A stretch of DNA of 64,000 nt from Erysipelotrichales bacterium (GTDB lineage: Bacteria; Bacillota_I; Bacilli_A; Erysipelotrichales; Erysipelotrichaceae). This document shows, one piece after another, positions 3,414-37,054 of this stretch. Position 1 is the first letter of the stretch; each line of letters begins with the position of its first letter. The notes beneath the pieces were generated by a model, which had not been told where the DNA came from, ran no database searches, and saw only the letters and a program-made list of their open reading frames with translations. The stretch spans positions 1 through 64,000 of the forward strand of contig JAFXJJ010000108.1 in the NCBI GenBank assembly GCA_017532345.1, written 5' to 3'. The translations under genes were made by a program, and so were the position numbers.

Positions 3414-4532
3414 TTATTTGAATGCATTTTTAAATTTATCAAAAATAGATCCGTTCTTATTTTCGATATTTCTTAGCTTTTCGTAAATTTCACGTTCTTC
3501 TCTACTTAATTTAGTAGGAATCTTAATATCAATATGAACGTATTCATCACCTGTTGCACCACCACGGATATCAGGAACACCTTTACCTCTTATACGAAGC
3601 TTTTGACCATGTTGTGTACCTTCTGGTACTGTTAATTCTATATCACCATAAGGTGTAGGAACATCTTTCTTACATCCTAATGCTGCATCAGCAACACTTA
3701 ATGGAATAGTAATATGAATATCTTTTCCATCTCTTGTATAGTTTTCATGTTTACCTACAATGATTTCTAAATATAAATCACCGTTAGGACCACCATTAAC
3801 GCCTCTTTCACCTTTACCAGATACCTTTAATTGTTGACCAGATTGAATACCTGCAGGAATTTTAACATCAATCTTAACAGTTTTATGAACATATCCTTCA
3901 CCATGACATGATGTACATTTACGTTTAATGAACTTACCAGTACCACGACATTCTGGACATGTAGTAGTATTCATCATTGTTCCAAACATCGTTCTAGTAG
4001 CTTGTTGTACTACACCTCTACCATTACATTTAGTACAAACTGAAATATCATCTTTACTGTATGCACCAGTACCATGACAATCTGGACATTCTTCATCAAC
4101 ATTAATAGTTAATTCAGTACTCTTTCCAAAGATTGCATCCATAAAGTCAATACGTAATTGCATATAACGGTCTTGACCCTTTCTTGGACTATTTGATGCA
4201 CGTGATGAACGACCACCACCGAATCCACCACCAAAGAAAGAACCAAAAATATCATTTAAATCATCAAAATCAGCGAATCCTGCACCGCCACCAAAGCCAG
4301 CATTACCATCAACACCTGCATGACCAAATTGATCATATGCAGCACGTTTTTGTGGATCAGATAATACTTCATTTGCTTCATTAATTTCTTTAAATTTATC
4401 TGCAGCATCAGGCTCTTTATTAATATCTGGGTGATACTTTTTAGCTAATTTACGATATGCACGTTTTATTTCATCGTCAGTAGCTGATTTACTAATGCCT
4501 AACACATCATAATAATCTCTTTTATCTGCCAT
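3414..4532 (-). CDS. dnaJ: Chaperone protein DnaJ
   Basis: An Hsp40 co-chaperone that delivers unfolded clients to DnaK and stimulates its ATPase. Domains in order: J domain with KKYHPDINK (HPD motif) in the first 70 residues; a glycine/phenylalanine-rich linker; four zinc-binding CxxCxGxG repeats ([32 protein letters not shown]); and the C-terminal substrate-binding domains. At 372 residues it is a full type I DnaJ. It is the last gene of hrcA-grpE-dnaK-dnaJ, separated from dnaK by a strong hairpin that may lower its expression relative to dnaK. Confidence 0.98.
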
Positions 4533-4556
4533 ACCAAAACTCCTTTATCATATACA

Positions 4557-4586
4557 AAGTAAAGCCTAGATACCTAGGCCTTACTT
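4557..4586 (-). promoter_or_regulatory. Intercistronic dnaK-dnaJ stem-loop
   Basis: A 13-bp stem with one G-U pair (4557-4569 with 4574-4586) and a 4-base loop. It begins 7 bases past the dnaK stop. What follows is TGTATATGA, not a U-run, so it looks like an RNA-processing or 3'-protecting structure or a weak terminator rather than a full one. Confidence 0.65.
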
Positions 4587-4592
4587 AATTGA

Positions 4593-6425
<1,833 letters not shown>

Positions 6426-12356: not shown

Positions 12357-12887
12357 TTATAATTTAATCCAAAATCGTTTGATTACTTCATCACCAACAA
12401 GAATATCTTTATCATAAAGTCCACCATTAGCTACTATAGTACGTTCACTTGCTATATTGGTAGCACTACAAGTTATTAAAACACGTTTTAATCCAATGTT
12501 TCTAGCATTTTCAAGATTCATATTAAGCATTTTAGTTGCATAGCCTTTTTTTCGTTCATCAGGTCTAACATAATATCCAATATGTCCTCCCCATGTTCTT
12601 AAAATGGGATGATTTATATGATGTCGTAAATCAATTACACCTATAATTTTATTATCACTTTCTCTGACGGCTATATAAATATTAGAAGGAACCTTATCTC
12701 TAGGGCACGTAGAAGAATCACTTCCTATTCTAATTGCCTCAATCCATTCTTGGGGCGAAGCACATATGTCTAAATTTCCACATCCAGCAAACTTATCATT
12801 GTCATCTGAATCAATAATTTCTTGACGAAATCTCCAGATATCCTCTGCATAATCCATTGTAGGTTCAATCAGCTTAATATCTAACAT
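12357..12887 (-). CDS. GNAT family N-acetyltransferase
   Basis: 176 residues. The acetyl-CoA motif A is YYVRPDERKKGYATKML (R/Q-x-x-G-x-G/A variant RKKGYA). A beta-bulge region is GHIGYYV, and the late motif LITCSATNIASERTIVANGG is typical of the YkkB/RimJ-like branch. Substrate unknown. It is similar in plan to the acetyltransferase at 13966-14538: both carry GHIGYxVRPxERxKGYA and a cysteine-x-x-x-NIAS motif. They flank an S66 peptidase, and the three probably arose or act together. Last gene of a seven-gene transcript. Confidence 0.88.
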   Translation of the reverse strand: MLDIKLIEPTMDYAEDIWRFRQEIIDSDDNDKFAGCGNLDICASPQEWIEAIRIGSDSSTCPRDKVPSNIYIAVRESDNKIIGVIDLRHHINHPILRTWGGHIGYYVRPDERKKGYATKMLNMNLENARNIGLKRVLITCSATNIASERTIVANGGLYDKDILVGDEVIKRFWIKL

Positions 12888-12909
12888 AATAAATTCTCCT
12901 TATGTAAAA

Positions 12910-13950
12910 TTATTGTTCAGTAGCAGGTTCTAGTAATGTGAGTGTTTTATGAACACAATCGATTTCATACTTCAAACCTAGTGGAAATACACCGATTGGA
13001 TAAGCGTGTCCAACGTTTACATTATATAGAATTGGTAAATCAGGTAAATTTGCTTCAAATCCAACAACTTGTTTATAAACAGATTTATATACGTCATACT
13101 TTTCTTTAAAAGCGGGTTTTCCAACAATAATTCCCTTAATTACATGTAGAATACCTTGTGCATGTAGATTTCTTAAGAACCAACTTAAAACTATCTCATG
13201 CATATTAACCTCACTAGTCTCGATTAGTAATATTTTCCCTTTCCAATCTTCTAGCGAAGGCCATAAAGGTGTGCCAAGTAGCTCTGGGAAAACATCAATA
13301 CATCCTCCTAATAACTCACCTGCTACTTTACCTGAACCTTGTAGTATTTCATACCCAGTATTAGGAAAACGTGGAGTTATTAGATTAATATTTTCTTCCT
13401 TCCACCAGACCTTATGATTCTCATAACTACAATAATCACTACATTTAATCTCCAATTTATCTTGTGGATTAAACAAAGTTTTCTCCATGGCATTTTTAGT
13501 ATACTCATTAATTGATACATATTCTGAAATATTATTCATTACTGATAAACCATAATATGATACTAACCCAGATTTATGCATCATAAAATGATTCGTAGTT
13601 GAATCAGAAAATCCAGTAAATATCTTAGGGTTATTTTTCAAAATATCAAAATCAATAAATGGCAAAAGTCTGATTGTATCATCTCCACCTATAGCATTAA
13701 AAACAGCTTTAATTTCTGGATTCTTAAAAGCTTCCATTAAATCACTTGCTCTAGCTTCAGGATGTTCATATAAATAATCTATTCCTTTTAAAGAATTAGG
13801 CATAGCAACAACTACTAATCCATATTCATCTTCTAATCTTTTTTTAGCAATTTCATATTTATGAATAAACAATTTCTCACCAAGCATACCGCGTGATAAG
13901 GAAACAATCGCAACCTTATCGCCCTTTCTTAAACATTTAGGTTTAATCAT
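12910..13950 (-). CDS. S66 family serine peptidase, MccF-like (LD-carboxypeptidase family)
   Basis: 346 residues. The nucleophile is Ser115 in GFSDST (the nucleophile elbow). Likely triad partners are Glu244 in LLIETSE and His315 in NVGHAYP. Nearby are IGGDDTIRLLPFIDFD and SYYGLSVM, which fit the MccF clade better than short LdcA murein peptidases. MccF cleaves the amide bond of microcin C and related aminoacyl-nucleotides; LdcA removes D-Ala from tetrapeptides in peptidoglycan recycling. There is no signal peptide, so it is cytosolic. Two GNAT genes flank it; in microcin C systems a GNAT (MccE) and MccF together give immunity. The substrate is inferred only. Confidence 0.82.
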   Translation of the reverse strand: MIKPKCLRKGDKVAIVSLSRGMLGEKLFIHKYEIAKKRLEDEYGLVVVAMPNSLKGIDYLYEHPEARASDLMEAFKNPEIKAVFNAIGGDDTIRLLPFIDFDILKNNPKIFTGFSDSTTNHFMMHKSGLVSYYGLSVMNNISEYVSINEYTKNAMEKTLFNPQDKLEIKCSDYCSYENHKVWWKEENINLITPRFPNTGYEILQGSGKVAGELLGGCIDVFPELLGTPLWPSLEDWKGKILLIETSEVNMHEIVLSWFLRNLHAQGILHVIKGIIVGKPAFKEKYDVYKSVYKQVVGFEANLPDLPILYNVNVGHAYPIGVFPLGLKYEIDCVHKTLTLLEPATEQ

Positions 13951-13965
13951 AAAGTATACCTCCTA

Positions 13966-14538
13966 CTACTTTGAATATAGTTCTTTATACTTTTCTAATG
14001 ACTTAACTGTATTAATCCAGTAAATATTTAAAATTTTATCATCTTTTATTTCATTTCTTTCAAAGACACCACCAAGAGCTTTGATTGTTTTGTCAGAAGC
14101 AATATTGGATTCTTCACAAGAAATCATTACATCCAATAAATTTAACTCATAAGCCTTTTGTAGTGCGAGATACAATTGAATCTTAGCATATCCCTTTTGA
14201 CGCTCACTCGGTCTAACACCATATCCAATATGACCAACAAACTTCAACATCTCTTCTGTCAAATCATAACGAATATTTACCATACCCACTATCTTGTTGT
14301 CTTCTTCACGTATACAAAAATATGTATATCCAGGTACAAAGCCTAATGAAGTTGCATACTTAGAATCTCTCATATTTAATACATCATCTAGCCATGTTTC
14401 ATAGCTCATACCCTTTAAACAGCGATTCAAGCCACCAGTACCATTTATCTTTGCATTATATAACTTATGCTCATTTATATATTCTAAAGCATCATATTTT
14501 CTACTAGCAGACGGTTCTTCTAAATAAAATCTTGTCAT
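13966..14538 (-). CDS. GNAT family N-acetyltransferase
   Basis: 190 residues with the GNAT core: GHIGYGVRPSERQKGYAKIQ (acetyl-CoA loop RQKGYA) and DVMISCEESNIASDKTIKAL. It resembles the gene at 12357-12887. The head FYLEEPSASRKYDALEYINE is typical of small-molecule acetyltransferases in Bacillota. It lies 14 bases after the RelA/SpoT-domain gene and 15 bases before the S66 peptidase. Substrate unknown. Confidence 0.87.
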   Translation of the reverse strand: MTRFYLEEPSASRKYDALEYINEHKLYNAKINGTGGLNRCLKGMSYETWLDDVLNMRDSKYATSLGFVPGYTYFCIREEDNKIVGMVNIRYDLTEEMLKFVGHIGYGVRPSERQKGYAKIQLYLALQKAYELNLLDVMISCEESNIASDKTIKALGGVFERNEIKDDKILNIYWINTVKSLEKYKELYSK

Positions 14539-26254: not shown

Positions 26255-26294
26255 ATATTAAAAAGACTGATAATACTGGTTGTAATTATCAGTC
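26255..26294 (-). terminator. Terminator after the FlxA-like gene
   Basis: The perfect 10-bp stem GACTGATAAT/ATTATCAGTC (26265-26274 with 26285-26294) has a 10-base loop. The minus-strand exit is TTTTTAATAT. Confidence 0.85.
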
Positions 26295-26322: not shown

Positions 26323-27078
26323 TTAAGCGTGAACATCAATAGTTAAATATGAAGTTGTTTCTTCATCATCTTTTGATATCAAATTAATTGTTCTGATTTC
26401 CTCTTTTATATCTTTATTTTCATCTTTAGTATTTATTTTTTTATTAGATGTTTTCTTGTCTTTATCAGTTTTATCTGCAATATCTTCTTCATAAGTTGAT
26501 TCAAATTCTTTATTAACATCCGTTAATATTTGAGTTTGAGTTGCTTCAATTTGATTAATTCTTTGTTGAACTTTTGTAAGTTCATCCGTTTTTGCATCCA
26601 CATTAATCCCACGAGATGAATCGAGTTTAATTTCCGACTGCAAAACCCCTGACCTACCTTCCATTTTTCTCATTACTCCACCCTGAACTTGAATTTGCAT
26701 TAATGAAGTGTTAACTGAAATAATAGCATTCATAGTCGAATGTGATAAGCCTAAACTTCTACCTTTTGATTTGGAAACACTGCTACTTGTACTATTAACC
26801 ATATTATTTAAAGTAGGAATTTTTATTTGTTGCTCTTTTCGTAATTCAACTTCATGTTGTCTTAATTGATTATTTAAGTCAGTGATTAGTTGTCTAATTT
26901 CCTGTCTTTTTTTCATCTTTTCTTCACTACTCATACTTTTATTTTCTGATAGCTCTTGCAATTGCTTTTGCGCATTCTCAATCTGATTTTGTATATTTTT
27001 ACTAAATGTGTCTTTTGATAATTGTTTATTCATCATTAAACTTTGAAATTTTACATTATTACTATTACCAATTCTCAT
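26323..27078 (-). CDS. FlxA-like coiled-coil protein
   Basis: 251 residues. A coiled coil at about 26-85 (IQNQIENAQKQLQELSENKS, MSSEEKMKKRQEIRQLITDL) matches the FlxA-like pattern of heptads around an S-x-E-E-K break. A polar middle with two candidate helices follows (MNAIISVNTSLMQIQVQGG), and the lysine/aspartate-rich tail ends in TSYLTIDVHA. No signal peptide or membrane helix. The N-terminus MRIGNSN repeats that of the upstream gene (SIKIGNS). Predicted second gene of a LytTR-controlled operon. The FlxA family has no settled molecular function. Confidence 0.65.
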   Translation of the reverse strand: MRIGNSNNVKFQSLMMNKQLSKDTFSKNIQNQIENAQKQLQELSENKSMSSEEKMKKRQEIRQLITDLNNQLRQHEVELRKEQQIKIPTLNNMVNSTSSSVSKSKGRSLGLSHSTMNAIISVNTSLMQIQVQGGVMRKMEGRSGVLQSEIKLDSSRGINVDAKTDELTKVQQRINQIEATQTQILTDVNKEFESTYEEDIADKTDKDKKTSNKKINTKDENKDIKEEIRTINLISKDDEETTSYLTIDVHA

Positions 27079-27095: not shown

Positions 27096-27701
27096 TTACA
27101 TTAATGAAGCCATCATATATATGCTTTCTTCCTCAACAGTAGGCTCTCTATCTTCTAAATTTACCATTCGACTCTCTGCCATAGACATTAAAGCATTAAG
27201 CTTATCCATTTCTGTTTCATCACACCACCCCTTTTCAATTGCTTCACTGATTTCTCTTACATCATTTTTTATTTCTGCTATTACGGCTCTTAGTTGACTT
27301 TTAGTCCTGGCAGCCGAAATTTTTCTAGCAGTTTTTCCCGCATTAACTCCGACCTTACGTGATACAGAAGTGCTTTCTTCACTGATTTTATTCCCTTTAA
27401 TACTTTTATTTGCTATTTCATTTTCAGAATTATTGTTTATTTTATCAGATATGATTTTTGAAATTACGATGTTTTTACCATCTAAATAACTTGATAAATA
27501 GTCAATTTCATTTTTGTTGGTTTCTGAATTAATAGCTTTATAATTTTCATCTAATTCGTCAAAAGACTCTTTTTTTATTAATTCAGTTTCATTACTACTA
27601 ATGTTTGCATTTTCTTTAACAGTAAGCTTTTCATTCGTTTTAATATGACTCTTATATGTATAATCACTAAATCTAAAGCTATTTCCAATTTTAATTGACA
27701 C
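27096..27701 (-). CDS. Hypothetical protein with IGNS N-terminus, first gene of the LytTR target operon
   Basis: 201 residues from a GTG start at 27701, chosen because AAGGAGG lies nine bases upstream. The open frame continues to 27788 through the promoter, which I reject. The head is SIKIGNSFRFSDYTYKSH. A long Asn/Glu/Lys-rich disordered part follows, then a helical C-terminus with RKVGVNAGKTARKISAARTK and RAVIAEIKNDVREISEAI. No signal peptide. No family recognised. It lies 17 bases before the FlxA-like gene and shares its first residues, so the two may be handled by the same machinery. Base composition is AT-richer than its neighbours. Confidence 0.65.
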   Translation of the reverse strand: MSIKIGNSFRFSDYTYKSHIKTNEKLTVKENANISSNETELIKKESFDELDENYKAINSETNKNEIDYLSSYLDGKNIVISKIISDKINNNSENEIANKSIKGNKISEESTSVSRKVGVNAGKTARKISAARTKSQLRAVIAEIKNDVREISEAIEKGWCDETEMDKLNALMSMAESRMVNLEDREPTVEEESIYMMASLM

Positions 27702-27763: not shown

Positions 27764-27769
27764 TTAATA
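27764..27769 (-). promoter_or_regulatory. Predicted -10 of the LytTR-controlled operon
   Basis: Minus-strand TATTAA within CGATATTAAA, 31 bases downstream of the LytTR repeats. The response-regulator promoter has CGATATAATA at the same distance. There is no recognisable -35, which fits an activator-dependent promoter. Confidence 0.6.
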
Positions 27770-27800
27770 TCGTTGTATAAAATAACATACTAAATAGACT

Positions 27801-27830
27801 TGTTGTAAAACTCCTTTTTTATGTTGTGAA
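27801..27830 (-). promoter_or_regulatory. LytTR-type binding site upstream of the hypothetical/FlxA-like operon
   Basis: Direct repeats on the minus strand: TTCACAACA (27822-27830), a 12-base spacer, and TTTACAACA (27801-27809), a 21-base period. Known LytTR regulators (AgrA, ComE, VirR) bind two imperfect 9-base direct repeats 12-13 bases apart. The same repeats stand before the response-regulator gene. Confidence 0.75.
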
Positions 27831-27868
27831 CTAAAAAACACAATCTTAAATTTACATTTAGATTGTGT
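27831..27868 (-). terminator. Terminator after the sensor kinase gene
   Basis: A stem ACACAATCT/AGATTGTGT extended by AAAT/ATTT with one bulged base. The minus-strand exit is TTTTTTAGTT. It separates the two-component genes from the target operon. Confidence 0.8.
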
Positions 27869-27878
27869 ACTTTGTAGA

Positions 27879-29246
27879 TTATTCTAACATTAGCATAACT
27901 GTTAACATAAAATAATTATCTTGTTGATATATATCTATATCTCCATAATATTTTTGAGCAACTTTACGAATATTCGCTAAGCCAAATCCATGATTATGCT
28001 TATCATTTTTAGTAGTTAATGGTAAACCAATCTCATCATCTATTTCTACATTTTTTACAATACTATTAGTTACTTCTAACATATAGGCATTCTTATTACG
28101 AAATGCTACAACAGAAACATATGGATTCTCACAACCAATAACCCCTTCAAAAGCATTATTAATTGCATTATTTAAAATCACGCTGATATCAAAGGCATTA
28201 ACATTAGTTTCAGCTGGATATACAAAATCACATACGAACTCAATCTTTTTATCTTCAGCCTCTTTTTGTCTTTGTTTTAAAATAATATCAGTAACTGGAT
28301 TACCAGTTTTAATACCAGTTGTCTTTTCATTCAATGATAATTTTAATTTATCTAAGTAACTTTTAAACTCTTCATTTTCATTTTTCAAATATAGATTTTC
28401 TAATATAGTAATATGATTTCCCATATCATGTTTTAATGCTTTAATGTCTTCGAATAAATTTTCAACTGAACTTATATGTAATTTAATATTTTCAATTTGA
28501 TCAACTAATAATAAACTTTCTTTTTCTTCACGCTGATTTTCTTTTAGTCTCTGAAATATTACTATCGCAATTAATATTATTGTAAACGAAAGCAATTGAT
28601 ATATTGCTTTTATAATAGAAAATTTAGGATATCTATTCCATATATATACTCCAACATCTTGAACATAAATTTTAGAAAACATACTAAATACAATATCCCC
28701 AAGCATCACTATTGATAAAACTGAAAAAAGCAATAATAATTCTTTAGTTGATATATCTTCTCGTTTGTTTACATATACCTTATGAAGCACCTTAATAACT
28801 AAGTACATAAAACATATAGTAACTATGTAATATGATCCTTCCACAATAATGTATGTTATTAATTGCTTCATTGGATGGCTCAACATATAAGAAGTATTAA
28901 TAAATAACCTAAACATTAGATCTCGCAATACTAATGTTATCCCATAAACCACCCAACGTAACAAATACATAACAGCTGATAAAAATACTTTTTGTTTTAC
29001 TTTTACTCTTTCTAGTAAACACATCATAATACAAATTATAATTATTCCTATTAGCTTTGCATAGATGATTTCAAATGGAATAAGATAAAGAGCACTCATT
29101 ACAGCTACATATAATATACAGACATATTTCAATTTAGTTTTCACGAAAGGTTTTAGAAATACATAAAATAAATAACCTTCAACAAAGGTATTTATCAATG
29201 TCATAATATGATTTACGATAGCCCAATAAATTTCTAAATTGACCAT
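27879..29246 (-). CDS. Sensor histidine kinase, AgrC/GHKL type
   Basis: 455 residues. About six or seven membrane helices fill the first 230 residues with no large outer domain, as in peptide-sensing AgrC-like kinases. A coiled linker (FQRLKENQREEKESLLLVDQ) leads to the phosphoacceptor His273 in LKHDMGNHI. The ATPase has NNAINNAFEG (N box) and HGFGLANIRKVAQKY (G box). Its regulator lies three bases upstream. No AgrB or AgrD homologue is in the window, so the signal is unknown. Confidence 0.92.
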   Translation of the reverse strand: MVNLEIYWAIVNHIMTLINTFVEGYLFYVFLKPFVKTKLKYVCILYVAVMSALYLIPFEIIYAKLIGIIIICIMMCLLERVKVKQKVFLSAVMYLLRWVVYGITLVLRDLMFRLFINTSYMLSHPMKQLITYIIVEGSYYIVTICFMYLVIKVLHKVYVNKREDISTKELLLLFSVLSIVMLGDIVFSMFSKIYVQDVGVYIWNRYPKFSIIKAIYQLLSFTIILIAIVIFQRLKENQREEKESLLLVDQIENIKLHISSVENLFEDIKALKHDMGNHITILENLYLKNENEEFKSYLDKLKLSLNEKTTGIKTGNPVTDIILKQRQKEAEDKKIEFVCDFVYPAETNVNAFDISVILNNAINNAFEGVIGCENPYVSVVAFRNKNAYMLEVTNSIVKNVEIDDEIGLPLTTKNDKHNHGFGLANIRKVAQKYYGDIDIYQQDNYFMLTVMLMLE

Positions 29247-29249
29247 AAT

Positions 29250-29957
29250 CTACCTTCTCTTTTGGTTATACTTCATATATGCTTTAACAAATTTAGGATA
29301 ATTCTGTTTAGCCATAAGAGCTTTTCCATTCTCTAAATAAATAGTATTTGAATCATACTTAATAATATACTTAAAATTAACTAAATATCCTCTATGCGGT
29401 CTAAAAAAATTATCTCCTACAATTGATTCTAGTTCTGACATTTTTCCGTAATATTCTATTATTTCATTATTCTTATGAATCACTACTTTTCGATTGAAAA
29501 CTTCTGCATACATAATTTCATCAATTTTAACTTTTATATGTAATCCGCCATTATTTACTAATATATATTTCTCTTGTATTTCATTTTCAAGAGTTGAATA
29601 TGTATTACAAGCAGATACAGCTTTGTGAAGTATATCATTAAATTTTTCATCATCAATAGGTTTCATTATGTAATTAAATGCACCAACATCAAATGCTTGA
29701 AATACATATTTTTCAAAAGCTGTTACAAAAATGATTATCAACCTTTTGTATTTTTCACGTAATTTCCTAGCTATTTCCATTCCATTTTTATCACTCATAC
29801 GAATGTCTAAAAATAAAATATCTAAATGCACATCCGATGAAGTTAATTCTTCTCCCGATTGATATAGTGTAATATCCATATCATCGTATTGATTAACTAT
29901 TTTATTTTTTATTAGTTCTCTAATGTATTTTTCATCATCACAAATTCCTATACGCAC
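29250..29957 (-). CDS. LytTR-family response regulator
   Basis: 235 residues. The receiver domain begins MRIGICDDEK, with phosphoacceptor Asp51 in ILFLDIRMSDKNGME, the T/S switch in FVTAFEKY and Lys in YIMKPIDD. The DNA-binding LytTR domain starts near residue 135 (IMYAEVFNRKVVIHKNNE) and includes FFRPHRGYLVNFKYI and LMAKQNYPKF. Such proteins bind paired 9-base repeats. Matching repeats lie 66-95 bases upstream of its own start and upstream of the 27701 gene, so it probably activates both. Confidence 0.95.
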   Translation of the reverse strand: MRIGICDDEKYIRELIKNKIVNQYDDMDITLYQSGEELTSSDVHLDILFLDIRMSDKNGMEIARKLREKYKRLIIIFVTAFEKYVFQAFDVGAFNYIMKPIDDEKFNDILHKAVSACNTYSTLENEIQEKYILVNNGGLHIKVKIDEIMYAEVFNRKVVIHKNNEIIEYYGKMSELESIVGDNFFRPHRGYLVNFKYIIKYDSNTIYLENGKALMAKQNYPKFVKAYMKYNQKRR

Positions 29958-29985
29958 AAACTCACATCCTTTACATTATTCTACT

Positions 29986-30052
29986 ATTATATCGAAATGT
30001 ATACTATATTTTGATAACAAGATGTAGTGAAAATACCTTTTTATGTTGTGAA
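29986..30052 (-). promoter_or_regulatory. LytTR site and promoter of the two-component operon
   Basis: Direct repeats on the minus strand: TTCACAACA (30044-30052), a 12-base spacer, and TTCACTACA (30023-30031). The -10 TATAAT (29986-29991) lies 31 bases downstream, with no good -35. Repeat sequence, spacer and distance to CGATAT all match the site at 27764-27830, which implies autoregulation. Confidence 0.75.
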
Positions 30053-30315: not shown

Positions 30316-32070
30316 TTATTTCACATTAAATCTATTACGTTTAACGTAGTGTGTGTGTAATAATTCGTGAGCTTTATGAGAGTTAGGTTCACCTAAGTAG
30401 TCTTTATATAAATCCTTAATTTGTGGATTTTCATGAGACTTACGAATTGGTAAGCTAGCATCTTCATCATATAATACTTTAGCTCTAGCAGCTTTATAAT
30501 CGAAACCACTATTTCTTACTTCAGCAGAAACAATTGATTGTCCTCCACCGTTTACACATCCACCTGGGCATCCCATGATTTCAATGAAATGATATTTTGA
30601 TGTACCATTTTTAATTTCTTCTAATAATGGTTTAGCTAATTTCATTGAGTGTGCAATCGCAACATTAATGTCAGTACCATTAATATTAACTGTAGCTTCT
30701 TTTAAGCCTTCAGTACCACGGCAAACTTGGAAATCAACTGATTCTAATGGTTTTTGAGTTAATACTTCATATACTGTACGTAATGCAGCTTCCATAACCC
30801 CACCAGTAGCACCGAAGATTACACCAGCACCAGTGTATTCACCAAATAAGTCTTGGTCAAATTTTTCATCTTGTAAGCTATTGAAATCAATACCATACAT
30901 CTTAATCATACGACCTAATTCTCTTGTAGTTAATACTGCATCAACATCTTGCATACCATCACGTTTCATTTCTTCACGTGTGATTTCGAATTTCTTAGCA
31001 ACACATGGCATAATTGATACTACATAAATATTCTTAGGATCAATATTATTAACTTCAGCAAAGCGTGACTTACAAACAGCACCCATCATCATATGAGGTG
31101 ATTTACAAGTTGATAAATGATCTAATAAATCAGGATATTCATATTCAATATATCTTACCCAACCTGGAGAACAAGAAGTGATCATTGGTAATGTACCCTT
31201 CTTTTGAAGACGAGTTAATAACTCAGTACCTTCTTCCATGATTGTTAAGTCAGCAGCAAAGTTAGTATCATAAACTCTGTCGAAACCAATCATCTTTAAT
31301 GCACTAGTCATCTTACCTGTTACACCTGTACCAATTGGTAAACCAAATTCTTCACCTAATGAAGCACGTACAGCTGGTGCAGTTTGCACGATAACAAACT
31401 TTTCAGGATCATTTAATGCATCAATTACATCATGGATACTTGTACGTTCTGTTAACGCACCAGTTGGACAAGCATTGATACATTGACCACATTGCATACA
31501 GTTAACGTCATTTAAAGATACATCGAATACAGGACCAATCTTAGTATTGAATCCACGATCAATATAGTTAAGAACACCTAAACCTTGAACCTTAGCACAT
31601 GTATTTACACATCTACCACAAAGTACACACTTAGAAGTATCTCTTACAATACCTGTAGAGAAATCATCAAATGTTGGTTTAGTTTTTACACCACTGAATA
31701 CATCATCTCTAGCACCAACTTGTTTAGCTAATTCTTGTAATTCACAGTTTTGTGAACGAGAGCATGATAAACAGTTTTTGCTATGGTTAGAAAGGATTAA
31801 TTCAACAGTATTTCTACGAGCTTCAATAGCACGTTTAGAGTTAACAAATACTTCCATTCCTTCGCTTACAGGATATACGCAGGCAGCAACTAAGCTTCTA
31901 CCACCCTTGATTTCTACAGTACAAACACGGCATGCACCTGTTCCTGTACACTCCTTAAGGAAACATAATGTAGGAATCTTAATTCCAGCATTACGTGCAG
32001 CAGTAAGGATAGTATCACCTGGATTCGCAACTACTTCGCGATTATTAATTTTTAAATGAATTTGTTCCAT
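30316..32070 (-). CDS. hydA: [FeFe] hydrogenase catalytic subunit HydA (HndD-like)
   Basis: 584 residues. The N-terminal [2Fe-2S] domain has CTGTGACRVC. A His-ligated cluster region is HSKNCLSCSRSQNC, and two [4Fe-4S] motifs follow (CVLCGRCVNTC, CMQCGQCINAC). The H-cluster domain has ITSCSPGW near 300, IMPCVAKKFE near 355 and EIMGCPGGCVNGGGQ. A small-subunit-like tail comes last. The motif reads TSCSP rather than TSCCP. With HydB and HydC it should couple H2 formation to NADH and reduced ferredoxin (electron bifurcation), inferred from subunit make-up. The maturases HydEFG are not in the window. Confidence 0.96.
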   Translation of the reverse strand: MEQIHLKINNREVVANPGDTILTAARNAGIKIPTLCFLKECTGTGACRVCTVEIKGGRSLVAACVYPVSEGMEVFVNSKRAIEARRNTVELILSNHSKNCLSCSRSQNCELQELAKQVGARDDVFSGVKTKPTFDDFSTGIVRDTSKCVLCGRCVNTCAKVQGLGVLNYIDRGFNTKIGPVFDVSLNDVNCMQCGQCINACPTGALTERTSIHDVIDALNDPEKFVIVQTAPAVRASLGEEFGLPIGTGVTGKMTSALKMIGFDRVYDTNFAADLTIMEEGTELLTRLQKKGTLPMITSCSPGWVRYIEYEYPDLLDHLSTCKSPHMMMGAVCKSRFAEVNNIDPKNIYVVSIMPCVAKKFEITREEMKRDGMQDVDAVLTTRELGRMIKMYGIDFNSLQDEKFDQDLFGEYTGAGVIFGATGGVMEAALRTVYEVLTQKPLESVDFQVCRGTEGLKEATVNINGTDINVAIAHSMKLAKPLLEEIKNGTSKYHFIEIMGCPGGCVNGGGQSIVSAEVRNSGFDYKAARAKVLYDEDASLPIRKSHENPQIKDLYKDYLGEPNSHKAHELLHTHYVKRNRFNVK

Positions 32071-32079
32071 GACATATAC

Positions 32080-33876
32080 CTACTTTCTAATAATTGCACC
32101 GAAGCGGCAATTATTTACGCATGTACCACACTTGATACACTTATCTTGATCAATCTTGAATGGTTCTTTCCCAACAACACCAGAGATTGCATCAACTGGA
32201 CAGTTCTTAGCACATAGACTACATTTCTTACATAGATCAGGATCAATTTCAAACTTCATAAGTTTCTTACAAACTCCAGCAGGACATGATTTGTCTTCAA
32301 CATGAGCTTTATATTCTTCTGGGAATTGTTTTAAAGTAGAAAGAATTGGGTTAGTAGCTGTTTGACCTAAACCACATAATGAAGCATCTTTTACTTTATA
32401 ACATAAAGCTTCCATTTCAGCTAATAATTCAGGAGTTCCACGACCCTCACAAATATCAGTTAACATTTCTAATAATCTCTTAGTACCGATACGACATGGA
32501 CTACATTTACCACATGATTCATCAACGATGAAATCCATATAGAAACGAGCAACGTCAACCATACAGTTGTCTTCATCCATTACAATCATACCACCGCTAC
32601 CCATCATAGAGCCACGAGCTACTAATGTATCGAAGTCGATTTCAACATCTAAATCTTTTTCAGTTAAACATCCACCTGATGGACCACCTGTTTGAACTGC
32701 TTTAAATTGTTTTCCATTTGGACATCCACCACCGATTTCATAAATGATTTCACGTAGTGTAGTTCCCATTGGTACTTCAACTAAACCAGTATTAACTACT
32801 TTACCACCTAAAGCGAATACTTTTGTACCTTTAGATCTTTCAGTACCAATTGAAGAGAACCAATCAGCACCTTTATAAATAATTTGAGCAATATTTGCTA
32901 ATGTTTCTACGTTATTAATAATAGTTGGTTTACCCCAAACACCACGTACAGCTGGGAATGGAGGTCTTGGTGAAGGCATACCACGTTTACCTTCGATAGA
33001 TGCGATTAATGCAGTTTCTTCACCACACACGAAAGCACCAGCACCTAAACGAATTTCAATATCAAAGCAGAAATCAGTTCCTAAGATGTTATCACCTAAT
33101 AAACCTAATTCCTTAGCTTGAGCAATCGCAAGTTCAATACGACGTACAGCAATTGGATACTCAGCACGTACATAGATATAACCATGATTACCACCAATAG
33201 CATAACCTGCAATGGCCATAGCTTCTAATACTGCATGAGGGTCACCTTCTAATACAGAACGGTCCATGAATGCACCTGGATCCCCTTCATCAGCATTACA
33301 AATTACATACTTTTCATCACTTGTTTGGTTATAAGCAAATTCCCATTTCTTACCTGTAGGGAATCCACCTCCACCACGGCCTCTTAAGCCTGATTTAAGA
33401 ATTTCATCAATAACTTCTCTTGGTGTCATTTCAGATAAAGCTTTAGCTAAACCTTGATAACCATCACGAGCGATATATTCATTAATATCTTCAGGGTTAA
33501 TTACACCACAGTTACGTAATACGATACGTTCTTGTTTCTTGTAGAAATTAATCTTATCGATATCAAAGATTTTTTCTTGAGTAGCATAATCAATATCGGT
33601 AACTAAAAGTCTTTCAACTCTTCTACCTTTGATGAAATGTTCTTTAACGATTTCTTCAACAGAATCAACATCTACATGACCATAGAATACTTTATCTGGA
33701 TATACTGCCATAATAGGTCCCTTTTGGCATAATCCAAAACATCCAGTTCTGATAATTTTTACTTCTTTAGTTAGCTCATACTTAGCAAGCATTTCTTCTA
33801 ATCTTTCACCAATTACAAGTGAATTAGATGAAGTACACCCTGTACCAGCACAGATTAAGACTTGTAAACGTTCCAT
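32080..33876 (-). CDS. hydB: Hydrogenase NADH-binding subunit HydB (NuoF-like)
   Basis: 598 residues. An N-terminal thioredoxin-like [2Fe-2S] part (ICAGTGCTSSNS, RTGCFGLCQKGP) leads to the NuoF core with GLRGRGGGGFPTGKKWEF (NADH/FMN), GAGAFVCGEETAL and the SLBB region. The [4Fe-4S] motif is SCGKCSPCRIGTKRLLE, and a C-terminal two-cluster ferredoxin has CKKCSLCAKNCP and CIKCGTCVNNCR. This is the flavin subunit that exchanges electrons with NAD(H) and is the likely bifurcation site. It lies nine bases before hydA. Confidence 0.96.
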   Translation of the reverse strand: MERLQVLICAGTGCTSSNSLVIGERLEEMLAKYELTKEVKIIRTGCFGLCQKGPIMAVYPDKVFYGHVDVDSVEEIVKEHFIKGRRVERLLVTDIDYATQEKIFDIDKINFYKKQERIVLRNCGVINPEDINEYIARDGYQGLAKALSEMTPREVIDEILKSGLRGRGGGGFPTGKKWEFAYNQTSDEKYVICNADEGDPGAFMDRSVLEGDPHAVLEAMAIAGYAIGGNHGYIYVRAEYPIAVRRIELAIAQAKELGLLGDNILGTDFCFDIEIRLGAGAFVCGEETALIASIEGKRGMPSPRPPFPAVRGVWGKPTIINNVETLANIAQIIYKGADWFSSIGTERSKGTKVFALGGKVVNTGLVEVPMGTTLREIIYEIGGGCPNGKQFKAVQTGGPSGGCLTEKDLDVEIDFDTLVARGSMMGSGGMIVMDEDNCMVDVARFYMDFIVDESCGKCSPCRIGTKRLLEMLTDICEGRGTPELLAEMEALCYKVKDASLCGLGQTATNPILSTLKQFPEEYKAHVEDKSCPAGVCKKLMKFEIDPDLCKKCSLCAKNCPVDAISGVVGKEPFKIDQDKCIKCGTCVNNCRFGAIIRK

Positions 33877-33888
33877 AAGTTCCTCCCT

Positions 33889-34257
33889 CTACTTCTTATA
33901 GTTGGCAATTGTATACTCCTCTAATACTTTGCCTTCCATTACATGTGAATGTAGAATTTCAACAGCTGTTTCAGGTGTAACCTTAACATAAGTTGTTTTC
34001 TTACCTTCACGATTATAAATTTCTACGATTGGTTCTAAAGTACACATACCAATACATCCAGTTTGAGTAATATTAGCATTTGTAACCTTAGCATTAGCAG
34101 CTTCTTCTACTAACGCATTTAAAACTGGTTTAGCACCAGCTGCAATACCACAAGTTGCCATCCCTACAACTACGCGATATTCTTTGTTTGCATCACGCAT
34201 TTCAACCATTGATTTAGCTTGATCACGTAATTTCTTTAAATCTGCAATTGACTTCAT
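33889..34257 (-). CDS. Thioredoxin-like [2Fe-2S] protein (HndB-like)
   Basis: 122 residues. Four cysteines in ATCGIAAGAKPV and QTGCIGMCTLEP form the thioredoxin-like [2Fe-2S] pattern of HndB (NADP-reducing hydrogenase subunit B) and of the first domain of NuoF-like subunits. It may pass electrons between HydC and HydB. The end overlaps nothing; the start overlaps the ATPase gene stop by 4 bases. Not all bifurcating hydrogenases have this separate subunit. Confidence 0.85.
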   Translation of the reverse strand: MKSIADLKKLRDQAKSMVEMRDANKEYRVVVGMATCGIAAGAKPVLNALVEEAANAKVTNANITQTGCIGMCTLEPIVEIYNREGKKTTYVKVTPETAVEILHSHVMEGKVLEEYTIANYKK

Positions 34258-34814
34258 GATTGTTCCTCCTTCTTCAATCGCTCCATATTTTCATTAATAT
34301 ATTCAGTAAGCCATATTTGAATAGCTGGCTCACTAATTGCAACATCTTCTAATTCGTTTTTTAATTCATTTGTACTAACTATAAATTCAGTATCATTATA
34401 ACTATACTGATAGATTAAATTAATTGTTTCATCAAATACCATTAAGGTTACGATTGCATCAGCTACATTTCCTAATGGAGGGCAATCAATGTTAGAAGAA
34501 TCAAATTCTGCTTTCAACTCTGTTCCCTTACCTTTGAGAGATTGTAGTAAAAATTTTCCGCCACACATCTCAGCTGCAGCTTTGATGAATGGTATGCCTA
34601 AACCAAATCGTCTTGTGGTACGTGATGTATAAAATGGATCTTGAGCATTTTTCATTTCTTCTTCGCTCATGCCCCTACCATCATCAATAATCGTAAAGCT
34701 AATTCGTGATGAGTTAGTATCTTCATTAATAAATATCTTTACTTCAGAAGAGTCTGCTTTCAAGGAATTCATTCCTATATCAAGCACATGCATTGCAATA
34801 TCTTGCATCATCAT
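34254..34814 (-). CDS. Histidine-kinase-like ATP-binding protein in the hydrogenase operon
   Basis: About 186 residues with a GHKL ATPase fold: MHVLDIGMNSLKA (N box with Asn), IIDDGRGMS (G1 box), TTRRFGLGIPFIKAAAEMCG (G2) and GKGTELKA. No phosphoacceptor histidine domain and no membrane part, so it is not a normal sensor kinase. SpoIIAB/RsbW-like anti-sigma factors or MutL-type proteins are alternatives. ATG 34814 was chosen because GGGGGTGA precedes it. Second ATPase of the operon, between PHP and HndB-like genes. Confidence 0.8.
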   Translation of the reverse strand: MMMQDIAMHVLDIGMNSLKADSSEVKIFINEDTNSSRISFTIIDDGRGMSEEEMKNAQDPFYTSRTTRRFGLGIPFIKAAAEMCGGKFLLQSLKGKGTELKAEFDSSNIDCPPLGNVADAIVTLMVFDETINLIYQYSYNDTEFIVSTNELKNELEDVAISEPAIQIWLTEYINENMERLKKEEQS

Positions 34815-34819
34815 AAAAC

Positions 34820-35512
34820 TCACCCCCAAAATCTTGTAAATACTTCTTCTTCAATTCCGTATTCAGCTTCATGAATATCAATTAAATGATGAGCATCAGA
34901 ATCATAGAAGAAAAGTGTATCTTCCTTAATCCATGGATGCATCTTAAGAATACGTTGTTTTTGTTCCTCATTTTTTACTTCAATAGCATCGTATTCCAAG
35001 TTATCTGGTATAAATCCTAATTGAGTGATTATACTATTTCCTCGATCTAATGCATGAGCAAGTACCACTTTACCATCATGTTCATGAACAATGTGACATA
35101 GCTCATTGATACCGATATCTAATGAAACAAGTAATAATAACTCCTCTTCACCTATCACTTCGTCTAGTTCATCTAATACATACTGTTCTCCAAAATAATC
35201 TTTACGATTTTTTATTCCAGGATGCCACTTAATAAGTAGCTCTTGAAACTGCATCGCTTTCTCATAACTCTTGAAGTAACAAAGTACATGAATATCCTCT
35301 TTCGTTTGAACCTCGCAACCAATTAAAACCTTAATTGGTAAGGTCTTTGCAACCTTCATGATTGCATTATATTGTCTAAGAGAATTATGATCGGTAATAC
35401 TAATAATATCTAGTTCTTTGATAACAGACATTTGAAGAATATTATTTACCGTCATGTCATTATCACTACAAGGTGATAAACAAGAATGAATATGCAAATC
35501 GTAGTACAACAT
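34820..35512 (-). CDS. PHP-domain phosphoesterase
   Basis: 230 residues. Metal-binding motifs of PHP proteins: DLHIHSCLSPC (H-x-H), SITDHNSLRQY, IGCEVQT, VLAHALDRG, and FYDSDAHHLIDIHEAEY. PHP enzymes hydrolyse phosphoesters of nucleotides, sugars or nucleic acids using three metals. In this operon the substrate could be a signalling nucleotide, but that is a guess. It starts just inside the DRTGG gene stop (TAGCATG). Confidence 0.85.
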   Translation of the reverse strand: MLYYDLHIHSCLSPCSDNDMTVNNILQMSVIKELDIISITDHNSLRQYNAIMKVAKTLPIKVLIGCEVQTKEDIHVLCYFKSYEKAMQFQELLIKWHPGIKNRKDYFGEQYVLDELDEVIGEEELLLLVSLDIGINELCHIVHEHDGKVVLAHALDRGNSIITQLGFIPDNLEYDAIEVKNEEQKQRILKMHPWIKEDTLFFYDSDAHHLIDIHEAEYGIEEEVFTRFWG

Positions 35513-35513
35513 G

Positions 35514-35846
35514 CTAAGCTTTAACAGTATTGAACTTAGTTACGAATTCGTAGGCAGTTAATGGTGTTGATAAGATTGCAAGATGTTCTTCATTAGCTTT
35601 ATCTAATGTTTCTTGAGGTATTTCAGCATCCTCAATAATAACTACACATGCAACTTCTTTTAATAATGCAACAGCAATAATATTAATGTGAGATTGAACT
35701 GTTAACCAAGCTTGATCAGCTTCTGCATGACCCATAACCCAGCTTAGTAAATCCCCAATATATAATGAATCTACATTTTTATTAAGAGCTTCATCATCTC
35801 CATAAGCTGTACATCCCATTAATTTAGATAATTCATTTACTGTCAT
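35514..35846 (-). CDS. DRTGG-domain protein (second copy in operon)
   Basis: About 110 residues from ATG 35846 (SD GGAG upstream; the frame reaches 35879). The DRTGG fold is seen in VDSLYIGDLLSWVMGHAEAD and WLTVQSHINIIAVALLKEVA, followed by CVVIIEDAEIPQETLDKANE. The name motif itself is not kept. DRTGG domains occur with CBS domains and in phosphotransacetylase N-termini, and may bind nucleotides. Paired with the similar gene at 37457-37825. Part of the putative signalling module in the hydrogenase operon. Confidence 0.75.
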   Translation of the reverse strand: MTVNELSKLMGCTAYGDDEALNKNVDSLYIGDLLSWVMGHAEADQAWLTVQSHINIIAVALLKEVACVVIIEDAEIPQETLDKANEEHLAILSTPLTAYEFVTKFNTVKA

Positions 35847-35851
35847 ATAAC

Positions 35852-37054
35852 CTACTCCTTCTTTGCCTTGATTCGACAATCCTCAATCTGATTATGTCCT
35901 TTCGCGATTTCCTCTGCCATATGTAAGCAGTTAGGAAAACCACATGCACCACAGTCAAATCCAGGTAGCTTTTCTCTAATTTCTTTGACACGAAGGAACC
36001 AATCCATTTTTTCCTTCATTTTTCGTAAATCTTGCTCATCCATCGGTTTAATATCTCGTACTACTTCTTCGAAACTTAAATCTAACACTTTATCAGAAGC
36101 ATCTTTATAAATTTCTTCTAGTTGAATACGATTTTCAAATGGATTAGTCCATAAAAGACCTCCTCCAACACAACCATTTGAACAAGCTGACATCGAAATG
36201 TATTTAGAACTTTGTAGTCTTTCAAATTCAACTAATTCTAAAACATCAGTCGCTTTATCGATACTGTCAACATTGATGATTGTATAATCTTCCATCATAC
36301 GTTGAACACCATCTTTAACGTCATATAGTAATCCAATTTTAGATAATTCAATTTCTTCTGCACTACCATCAACTTCGCGCATTGTTTTTCTTAAAATGGC
36401 ACTTATCGAATTTACTGCAATCGCATGATCCACTTCATATTCCATATTTCCATTTGGATATTTTGCTAAATCAAGTTTAGCTGCACATTCACACAATAAG
36501 AATATACCGATTTCTTCTTTCTTTAATCCCGTTTCTTCCATTATAGCTTTTCGCTTCATACGAGCAGCTAATTCTGAAGGATATTCCATAGGAATTAAGT
36601 ATGGAACTAATCCAGGATATTTATGGTAAATCATCTTAGTAATTGATGGACAATGTGAAGATAATAAATAATTATTTTTGTATTTCTTAATAAAAGGTAC
36701 TGCATTATTCATAATTGCTGAGTTATATAAACTCAAATCAACTACCTCATCAAACCCTAAAACATGGAAAGCATGTTCCATTTTACGCATTTGAATCGTA
36801 TCAGAAAATTGTGTATAAAAACTAACTGGTATTAATACACAAGTGTATTTATAATTCTTATTAAATTCTAATTTCGATGATACAATAGTAAACCCATTAT
36901 TAGGACATACATGTAAGCATTTACCACAATCAATGCATTTATCCTTACGAATTAACGGTAAATCATTAACATAATGTAATGCATCCATTGGACAAGCTTT
37001 CATGCACTTCATGCAATGTTCACAAGCAAGTGGATTATAAGATTCTATATTCAT
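35852..37054 (-). CDS. Hydrogenase-related iron-sulfur protein (ferredoxin + degenerate H-cluster domain + Fe-S domain)
   Basis: 400 residues. The N-terminal two-cluster ferredoxin has CEHCMKCMKACP and CIDCGKCLHVCP. A middle domain resembles the C-terminal hydrogenase domain, with LSSHCPSITKMIYHKYPGLV, IFLLCECAAKLDLAKY and SMSACSNGCVGGGL as shifted versions of the three H-cluster motifs. The C-terminal four-Cys Fe-S domain is FDCGACGFPNCLHMAEEI with a last Cys in EDCRIK. The H-cluster ligands are not intact, so a redox sensor or electron carrier is more likely than an active hydrogenase. It overlaps the ATPase stop by 4 bases. Confidence 0.82.
   Translation of the reverse strand: MNIESYNPLACEHCMKCMKACPMDALHYVNDLPLIRKDKCIDCGKCLHVCPNNGFTIVSSKLEFNKNYKYTCVLIPVSFYTQFSDTIQMRKMEHAFHVLGFDEVVDLSLYNSAIMNNAVPFIKKYKNNYLLSSHCPSITKMIYHKYPGLVPYLIPMEYPSELAARMKRKAIMEETGLKKEEIGIFLLCECAAKLDLAKYPNGNMEYEVDHAIAVNSISAILRKTMREVDGSAEEIELSKIGLLYDVKDGVQRMMEDYTIINVDSIDKATDVLELVEFERLQSSKYISMSACSNGCVGGGLLWTNPFENRIQLEEIYKDASDKVLDLSFEEVVRDIKPMDEQDLRKMKEKMDWFLRVKEIREKLPGFDCGACGFPNCLHMAEEIAKGHNQIEDCRIKAKKE

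Follow-up and report, generated by a model that had tools for sequence, protein, structure and literature searches.

Which genes answer to the LytTR two-component system of this Erysipelotrichales bacterium, and in which direction are they controlled? The first-pass annotation saw two promoters of identical geometry in the window—the whole stretch of 64,000 nucleotides that was analysed—and proposed that the regulator activates its own operon and the two genes downstream, whose products would then be the output of the system.

The cassette lies on the minus strand. Its first gene (29250–29957, GTG start) encodes a response regulator composed of a receiver domain (PF00072, 8e-18) and a LytTR DNA-binding domain (PF04397, 2e-16); D7, D8, D51—the phosphorylatable Asp—and K99 are invariant in six orthologues. 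The second (27879–29246) encodes an AgrC-like membrane histidine kinase of the GHKL kind (HATPase_c_5; PF14501, 9e-23, 80.6 bits) that keeps its H, N and G boxes, with H273, N359/N360 and G420/G422 likewise invariant in six orthologues. A hairpin with a U-run comes next (27832–27868, fold z-score −3.4), the likely terminator of the regulator–kinase operon, and directly after it the second operator, output gene 1, output gene 2, and a further hairpin with a U-run (26260–26294, fold z-score −4.3) that is likely to terminate the output operon. Since a predicted terminator stands between the kinase gene and the second promoter, separate transcription would require that promoter; with predicted terminators and an operator before each unit, the cassette appears to be transcribed as two distinct units. 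Rfam gave no matches in the 20 kb around the cassette. Translations point to an apparent [FeFe]-hydrogenase/NADH-dehydrogenase-like gene cluster (30316–37054) immediately upstream and in the same orientation.

Output gene 1 (27096–27701, 201 aa) has no family of its own, and the C-terminal half of its product aligns with a DUF6033-bearing protein of a related locus (L060:9603-10769). It starts at the GTG at 27701, which is preceded by AAGGAGG; a 230-aa reading frame from 27788 was rejected because its start would lie upstream of the −10 region. Output gene 2 (26323–27078, 251 aa) encodes a FlxA-like protein (PF14282, 43.8 bits against a cut-off of 26.3), predicted to be helical (pLDDT 67) and with no PDB matches at E ≤ 0.001. 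Its homologues occupy the equal operon position in relatives.

Both operators proved to be as the annotation had claimed: 9-bp direct repeats of LytTR type around a 12-bp spacer that starts TAAAAA. The regulator-operon operator reads TTCACAACA-TAAAAAGGTATT-TTCACTACA (30052–30023, minus strand), with its distal repeat TTCACAACA at 30044–30052 and its proximal repeat TTCACTACA at 30023–30031. The output-operon operator reads TTCACAACA-TAAAAAAGGAGT-TTTACAACA (27830–27801, minus strand), with TTCACAACA at 27822–27830 and TTTACAACA at 27801–27809. All four repeats match exactly, and the positions of the two proximal ones are conserved in relatives. The distance from the proximal repeat to CGATAT is indeed exactly 28 nt in both promoters (CGATAT at 29994–29989 and 27772–27767). 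When the host genome was scanned with TTYACWACA-N12-TTYACWACA, as had been suggested, these two sites alone matched exactly in the 2.1-Mb assembly, which is 89% complete, so that remote sites could be missed. One match with a single mismatch (C21:4499) was rejected as an operator, being inside a coding sequence whose translation is a substrate-binding protein; matches with 2–3 mismatches are no commoner in the host genome than those of the reversed control pattern. The host also encodes two further LytTR proteins (G000:C4:34605-34886 and C89:5018-5281), which might share the sites.

The layout is not peculiar to this genome. A kinase-profile scan of named genomes found the first related loci: those of the Lachnospiraceae MAGs SIG301 and SIG333, Agathobacter ruminis and Butyrivibrio hungatei, and an 8.8-kb contig filed under Kandleria vitulina. 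Four Lachnospiraceae loci (L060–L063) have both operators in the same two places; the Kandleria contig has the output operator only. Among 397 genomes of the A. ruminis family, 58 carry the kinase family, and with 40 further loci fetched and oriented the set came to 46 oriented loci, mostly from Lachnospiraceae. For the regions upstream of the regulator and downstream of the kinase, the scanning matrix was built from the first few loci alone; the period was left free from 19 to 24 and significance set above the 99% level of shuffled regions. Significant operators appeared upstream of the regulator in 35/43 regions and downstream of the kinase in 32/46; their period was exactly 21 bp in 35/35 of the former and 30/32 of the latter (65/67 together). 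The two-site layout recurs in L060–L063 and in most of the 40 further loci; one of the two sites is absent in some relatives (the output site in L165, for example, or the regulator site in L170).

The operators resemble one another in detail, too. Three A positions of the spacer A-tract are conserved in 35/35 regulator sites. In many relatives the conserved core begins one base earlier, reading GTTCAC (for example in CCGTTCACTACA), which comes near the canonical LytTR core, GTTNA; at that earlier position T is found in three of the window's four half-sites. Operators within a locus differ by 2.83 mismatches per 18 positions, versus 4.01 between loci (p ~5e-5, non-redundant set), and this co-variation is what one shared regulator predicts. 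It gives indirect support to the inference that the regulator binds both repeat pairs. Taken together, the family-wide layout, the co-variation and the uniqueness of the exact sites support the proposal that the regulator controls its own operon and the two-gene operon downstream. The kinase family was not found in viral contigs. Two loci carry orphan operator copies with no regulator gene following (L126 6122-6151 and L127 109-138), probably relict promoters, one of them following closely on a relaxase-like gene where a contig ends. Extra operator-like pairs lie outside the usual two places at L190 549, L191 297, L187 5464, L174 5343 and L189 2066 (oriented coordinates); these are possibly further targets of the same regulators.

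The genes behind the second operator fall into a few recurrent families. FlxA/DUF6033-type outputs number 48 proteins in 33 loci, FliD_C-like outputs 16 in 15 loci (over or just under the Pfam cut-off in several), and outputs of an unnamed LKSTQ family 8 in 8 loci. That the two downstream proteins are the output of the system, as the first-pass annotation had it, is supported by this recurrence of the same families after the kinase and by the predicted terminators that bound the units. Most of these proteins, the FliD_C-like ones excepted, end in a motif of the form hydrophobic-D/N-hydrophobic-x-hydrophobic (hDhxh; VDVRL, IDYRI, VDVKV), picked after viewing the data (loci L060–L063 and L158–L197). 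It is present in 23/25 FlxA-type proteins, 18/23 other members of cluster 1 (mostly DUF6033-type) and 8/8 LKSTQ proteins, in 2/86 other downstream ORFs, and in 0/16 FliD_C-like proteins; output gene 2 of the window ends TIDVHA. The motif could be a shared export or assembly tag. A search of the available literature found no papers on DUF6033.

In the Lachnospiraceae sampled, the cassette goes with flagellar genes. FlhA is encoded in 58/58 kinase-bearing Lachnospiraceae genomes versus 153/339 others (Fisher 3e-18, for genomes that are not independent and with phylogeny uncorrected), and in 54/54 when the four seed genomes are set aside. The host genome, too, has a flagellar locus with FlhA and FliA; its flagellar operons, a flgM-flgK-fliD region and the basal body, lie on one contig (G000:C10, L074–L077). 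In another genome of its genus, one that lacks the cassette, no FliA scores over the cut-off, and motility varies within the host genus. The island goes with flagellated hosts, and most likely its output works at the flagellum or leaves through it. The namesake of PF14282, E. coli flxA, is a FliA-dependent gene with no known motility role (PMC4183435); the likeness to output gene 2 is one of family name, and unlike that gene, flxA has no two-component island in its description (PMC4183435).

The promoters themselves are less easily read. The −10 regions, CGATATAAT for the regulator operon (29986–29994) and CGATATTAA for the output operon (27764–27772), each begin 28 nt after the proximal repeat, and this element played no part in choosing the sites. 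In the set of loci, CGA falls 27–29 nt beyond the proximal repeat of 28/35 regulator promoters and of 30/30 output promoters, compared with about 3 in shuffles. The conserved element is CCGA: CCGATATAAT in regulator promoters, CCGAAA in output promoters. Aligned on CGA, the regulator promoters read TTCCGATATAAT; the consensus of relatives is CCGATAT, where the window has CGATAT. Output promoters have a TTTA/TTGA-like stretch ~17 nt before CCGAAA.

These could be ordinary sigma-A promoters served by a LytTR activator, with a TATAAT-like −10, a CCGA that is a habit of the lineage, and a flagellar link that reflects the shared ancestry of motile Lachnospiraceae—a reading to which we would give slightly less than an even chance. 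The regulator-promoter consensus includes TATAAT, and if the spacer is 17 nt long the repeats fall ~8 nt before the −35 position, as they do in known LytTR operons (PMC6193735). Against this, the output promoters retain CCGA without TATAAT in 30 loci, and FlhA is present in every kinase-bearing genome. In regulators of other LytTR systems, moreover, TATAAT is about equally frequent (15/28 versus 21/42 here), yet CCGATA/CGATATAAT is found in 0/28 versus 27/42 here (p 6e-9).

The element resembles the −10 of flagellar sigma-28, which in general is CCGATAT and in Butyrivibrio fibrisolvens MCGATAa (PMC3720852). Sigma-28 (FliA/SigD) flagellin promoters of Butyrivibrio, Roseburia and Eubacterium have one or the other (PMC3720852), and the regulator promoters here are similar in their consensus; they differ from the flagellin promoters in lacking a TAAA −35 and in having a LytTR operator upstream, and the output promoters in reading CCGAAA. 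A sigma-28 promoter would have its TAAA −35 at 15–17 nt; among 59 promoters TAAA occurs exactly in none at spacers of 14–18 and in one at 13, and a sigma-28 consensus scan of the host genome gave no excess over control; both results favour sigma-A. The host's own flagellin and flgM promoters show GAAGATAT and GCGATAT with no clear TAAA, and some flagellin genes in relatives' genomes carry TAAA-N15-TCCGATAT and similar. Because the TAAA −35 is missing, the consensus is not in excess, and the host's own late flagellar promoters are unclear, we do not file these as sigma-28 promoters, and sigma-28 use is unproven. That the two-component system activates promoters of sigma-28 type, so that the FlxA-like, DUF6033 and FliD_C-like outputs would need both the sigma factor and the kinase signal and would be exported via the flagellum, is the foremost of the newer readings, one we put forward tentatively and think somewhat improbable. 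If true, the output would be made only when the sigma factor of the late flagellar genes is active and the kinase signal present, and would reach the cell's surface or surroundings by way of the flagellum. A LytTR activator may work on a flagellar-type −10 element; a literature search found no description of one that does.

Could the regulator repress both units instead, or serve as a negative-feedback device? Position alone is no proof of activation, and nevertheless repression strikes us as very improbable: the operators stop well short of the −10, there is at best a weak −35, and characterised LytTR regulators of equal geometry activate (PMC6193735; PMC4227749). That the repeats are chance resemblances in AT-rich DNA, where the pattern with three mismatches is not rare in the window alone (2 found, 1.03 expected), is already refuted by the comparative data: two exact sites genome-wide, and both positions conserved across 46 loci with a fixed period.

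Activation, preferred on account of operator position, most likely extends to both units and would yield positive feedback together with a dedicated output. As we picture it, the membrane kinase phosphorylates the LytTR regulator, which would bind the two 9-bp direct repeats from the same DNA face, at a period of 21 bp and with the A-tract between them. So placed, it could recruit RNA polymerase to the −10 element 28–31 nt downstream. One copy of the site would drive the regulator–kinase operon, closing a positive feedback loop, and the other the adjacent output operon—FlxA-like and DUF6033-type here, FliD_C-like as well in relatives—whose proteins would act at the flagellum or leave the cell through it. 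Leaving the export step aside, we consider it highly probable, from the sequences compared, that regulator–kinase operon and adjacent output operon make up a compact, self-activating local regulon.

Such a circuit is known in kind. Autoactivation through LytTR operators of this length and spacing has been published, and HdrR, an activating regulator, has the geometry seen here: 9-bp repeats separated by 12 bp, immediately before a weak promoter (PMC6193735). In the LytTR Regulatory Systems of Streptococcus mutans (HdrRM, BrsRM), however, the regulator's partner is a membrane inhibitor; here it is a GHKL kinase, and a receiver domain forms part of the regulator. AgrC-AgrA of Staphylococcus aureus (P2/P3) combines a GHKL kinase with a LytTR regulator and has direct repeats upstream of weak promoters, one of which drives the system's own operon (PMC4227749). 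It differs in its repeat sequence, in the output, which here is the adjacent operon of FlxA-like, DUF6033 and FliD_C-like proteins, and in its signal: the window locus has no recognised genes for a signal peptide and protease (AgrD, AgrB), the loci showed no signal gene conserved upstream, and no upstream ORF of at least 25 aa is common to the loci. What is new is that the output families form a fixed set, that the system is tied to flagella and that its promoters have the CCGA element. For protein families without known role the cassette provides a regulator, an operator and targets that can be tested, and it suggests that among the motile commensals of gut and rumen many possess a set of flagellum-associated proteins under the control of a signal.

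How the cassette reached this host can be surmised from its relatives. In the kinase tree the window's sequence groups with G696, a genome of the Lachnospiraceae sample (62% identity), and with L060 (53%), with support of 97/88 and 100/100. Among 146 relatives and 392 genomes of the phylum, relatives of output gene 2 were found, besides the host, only in G090, a genome of the same order whose cassette-bearing contig is filed under Kandleria vitulina, a member of the Erysipelotrichales; other sampled genomes of the host's family have neither output gene 2 nor a close regulator. Horizontal acquisition from Lachnospiraceae would be the simplest account. The cassette filed under Kandleria closely resembles that of Agathobacter (L064/L056; G090:C49, 8,830 bp), and the Kandleria vitulina genome has no FliA over cut-off; contamination and a mobile element are both possible. 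In Butyrivibrio hungatei (L063) the cassette is flanked by genes that translate as recombinase-like and relaxase-like (4008-5627 and 12783-14039), which suggests that there it is carried on a mobile element.
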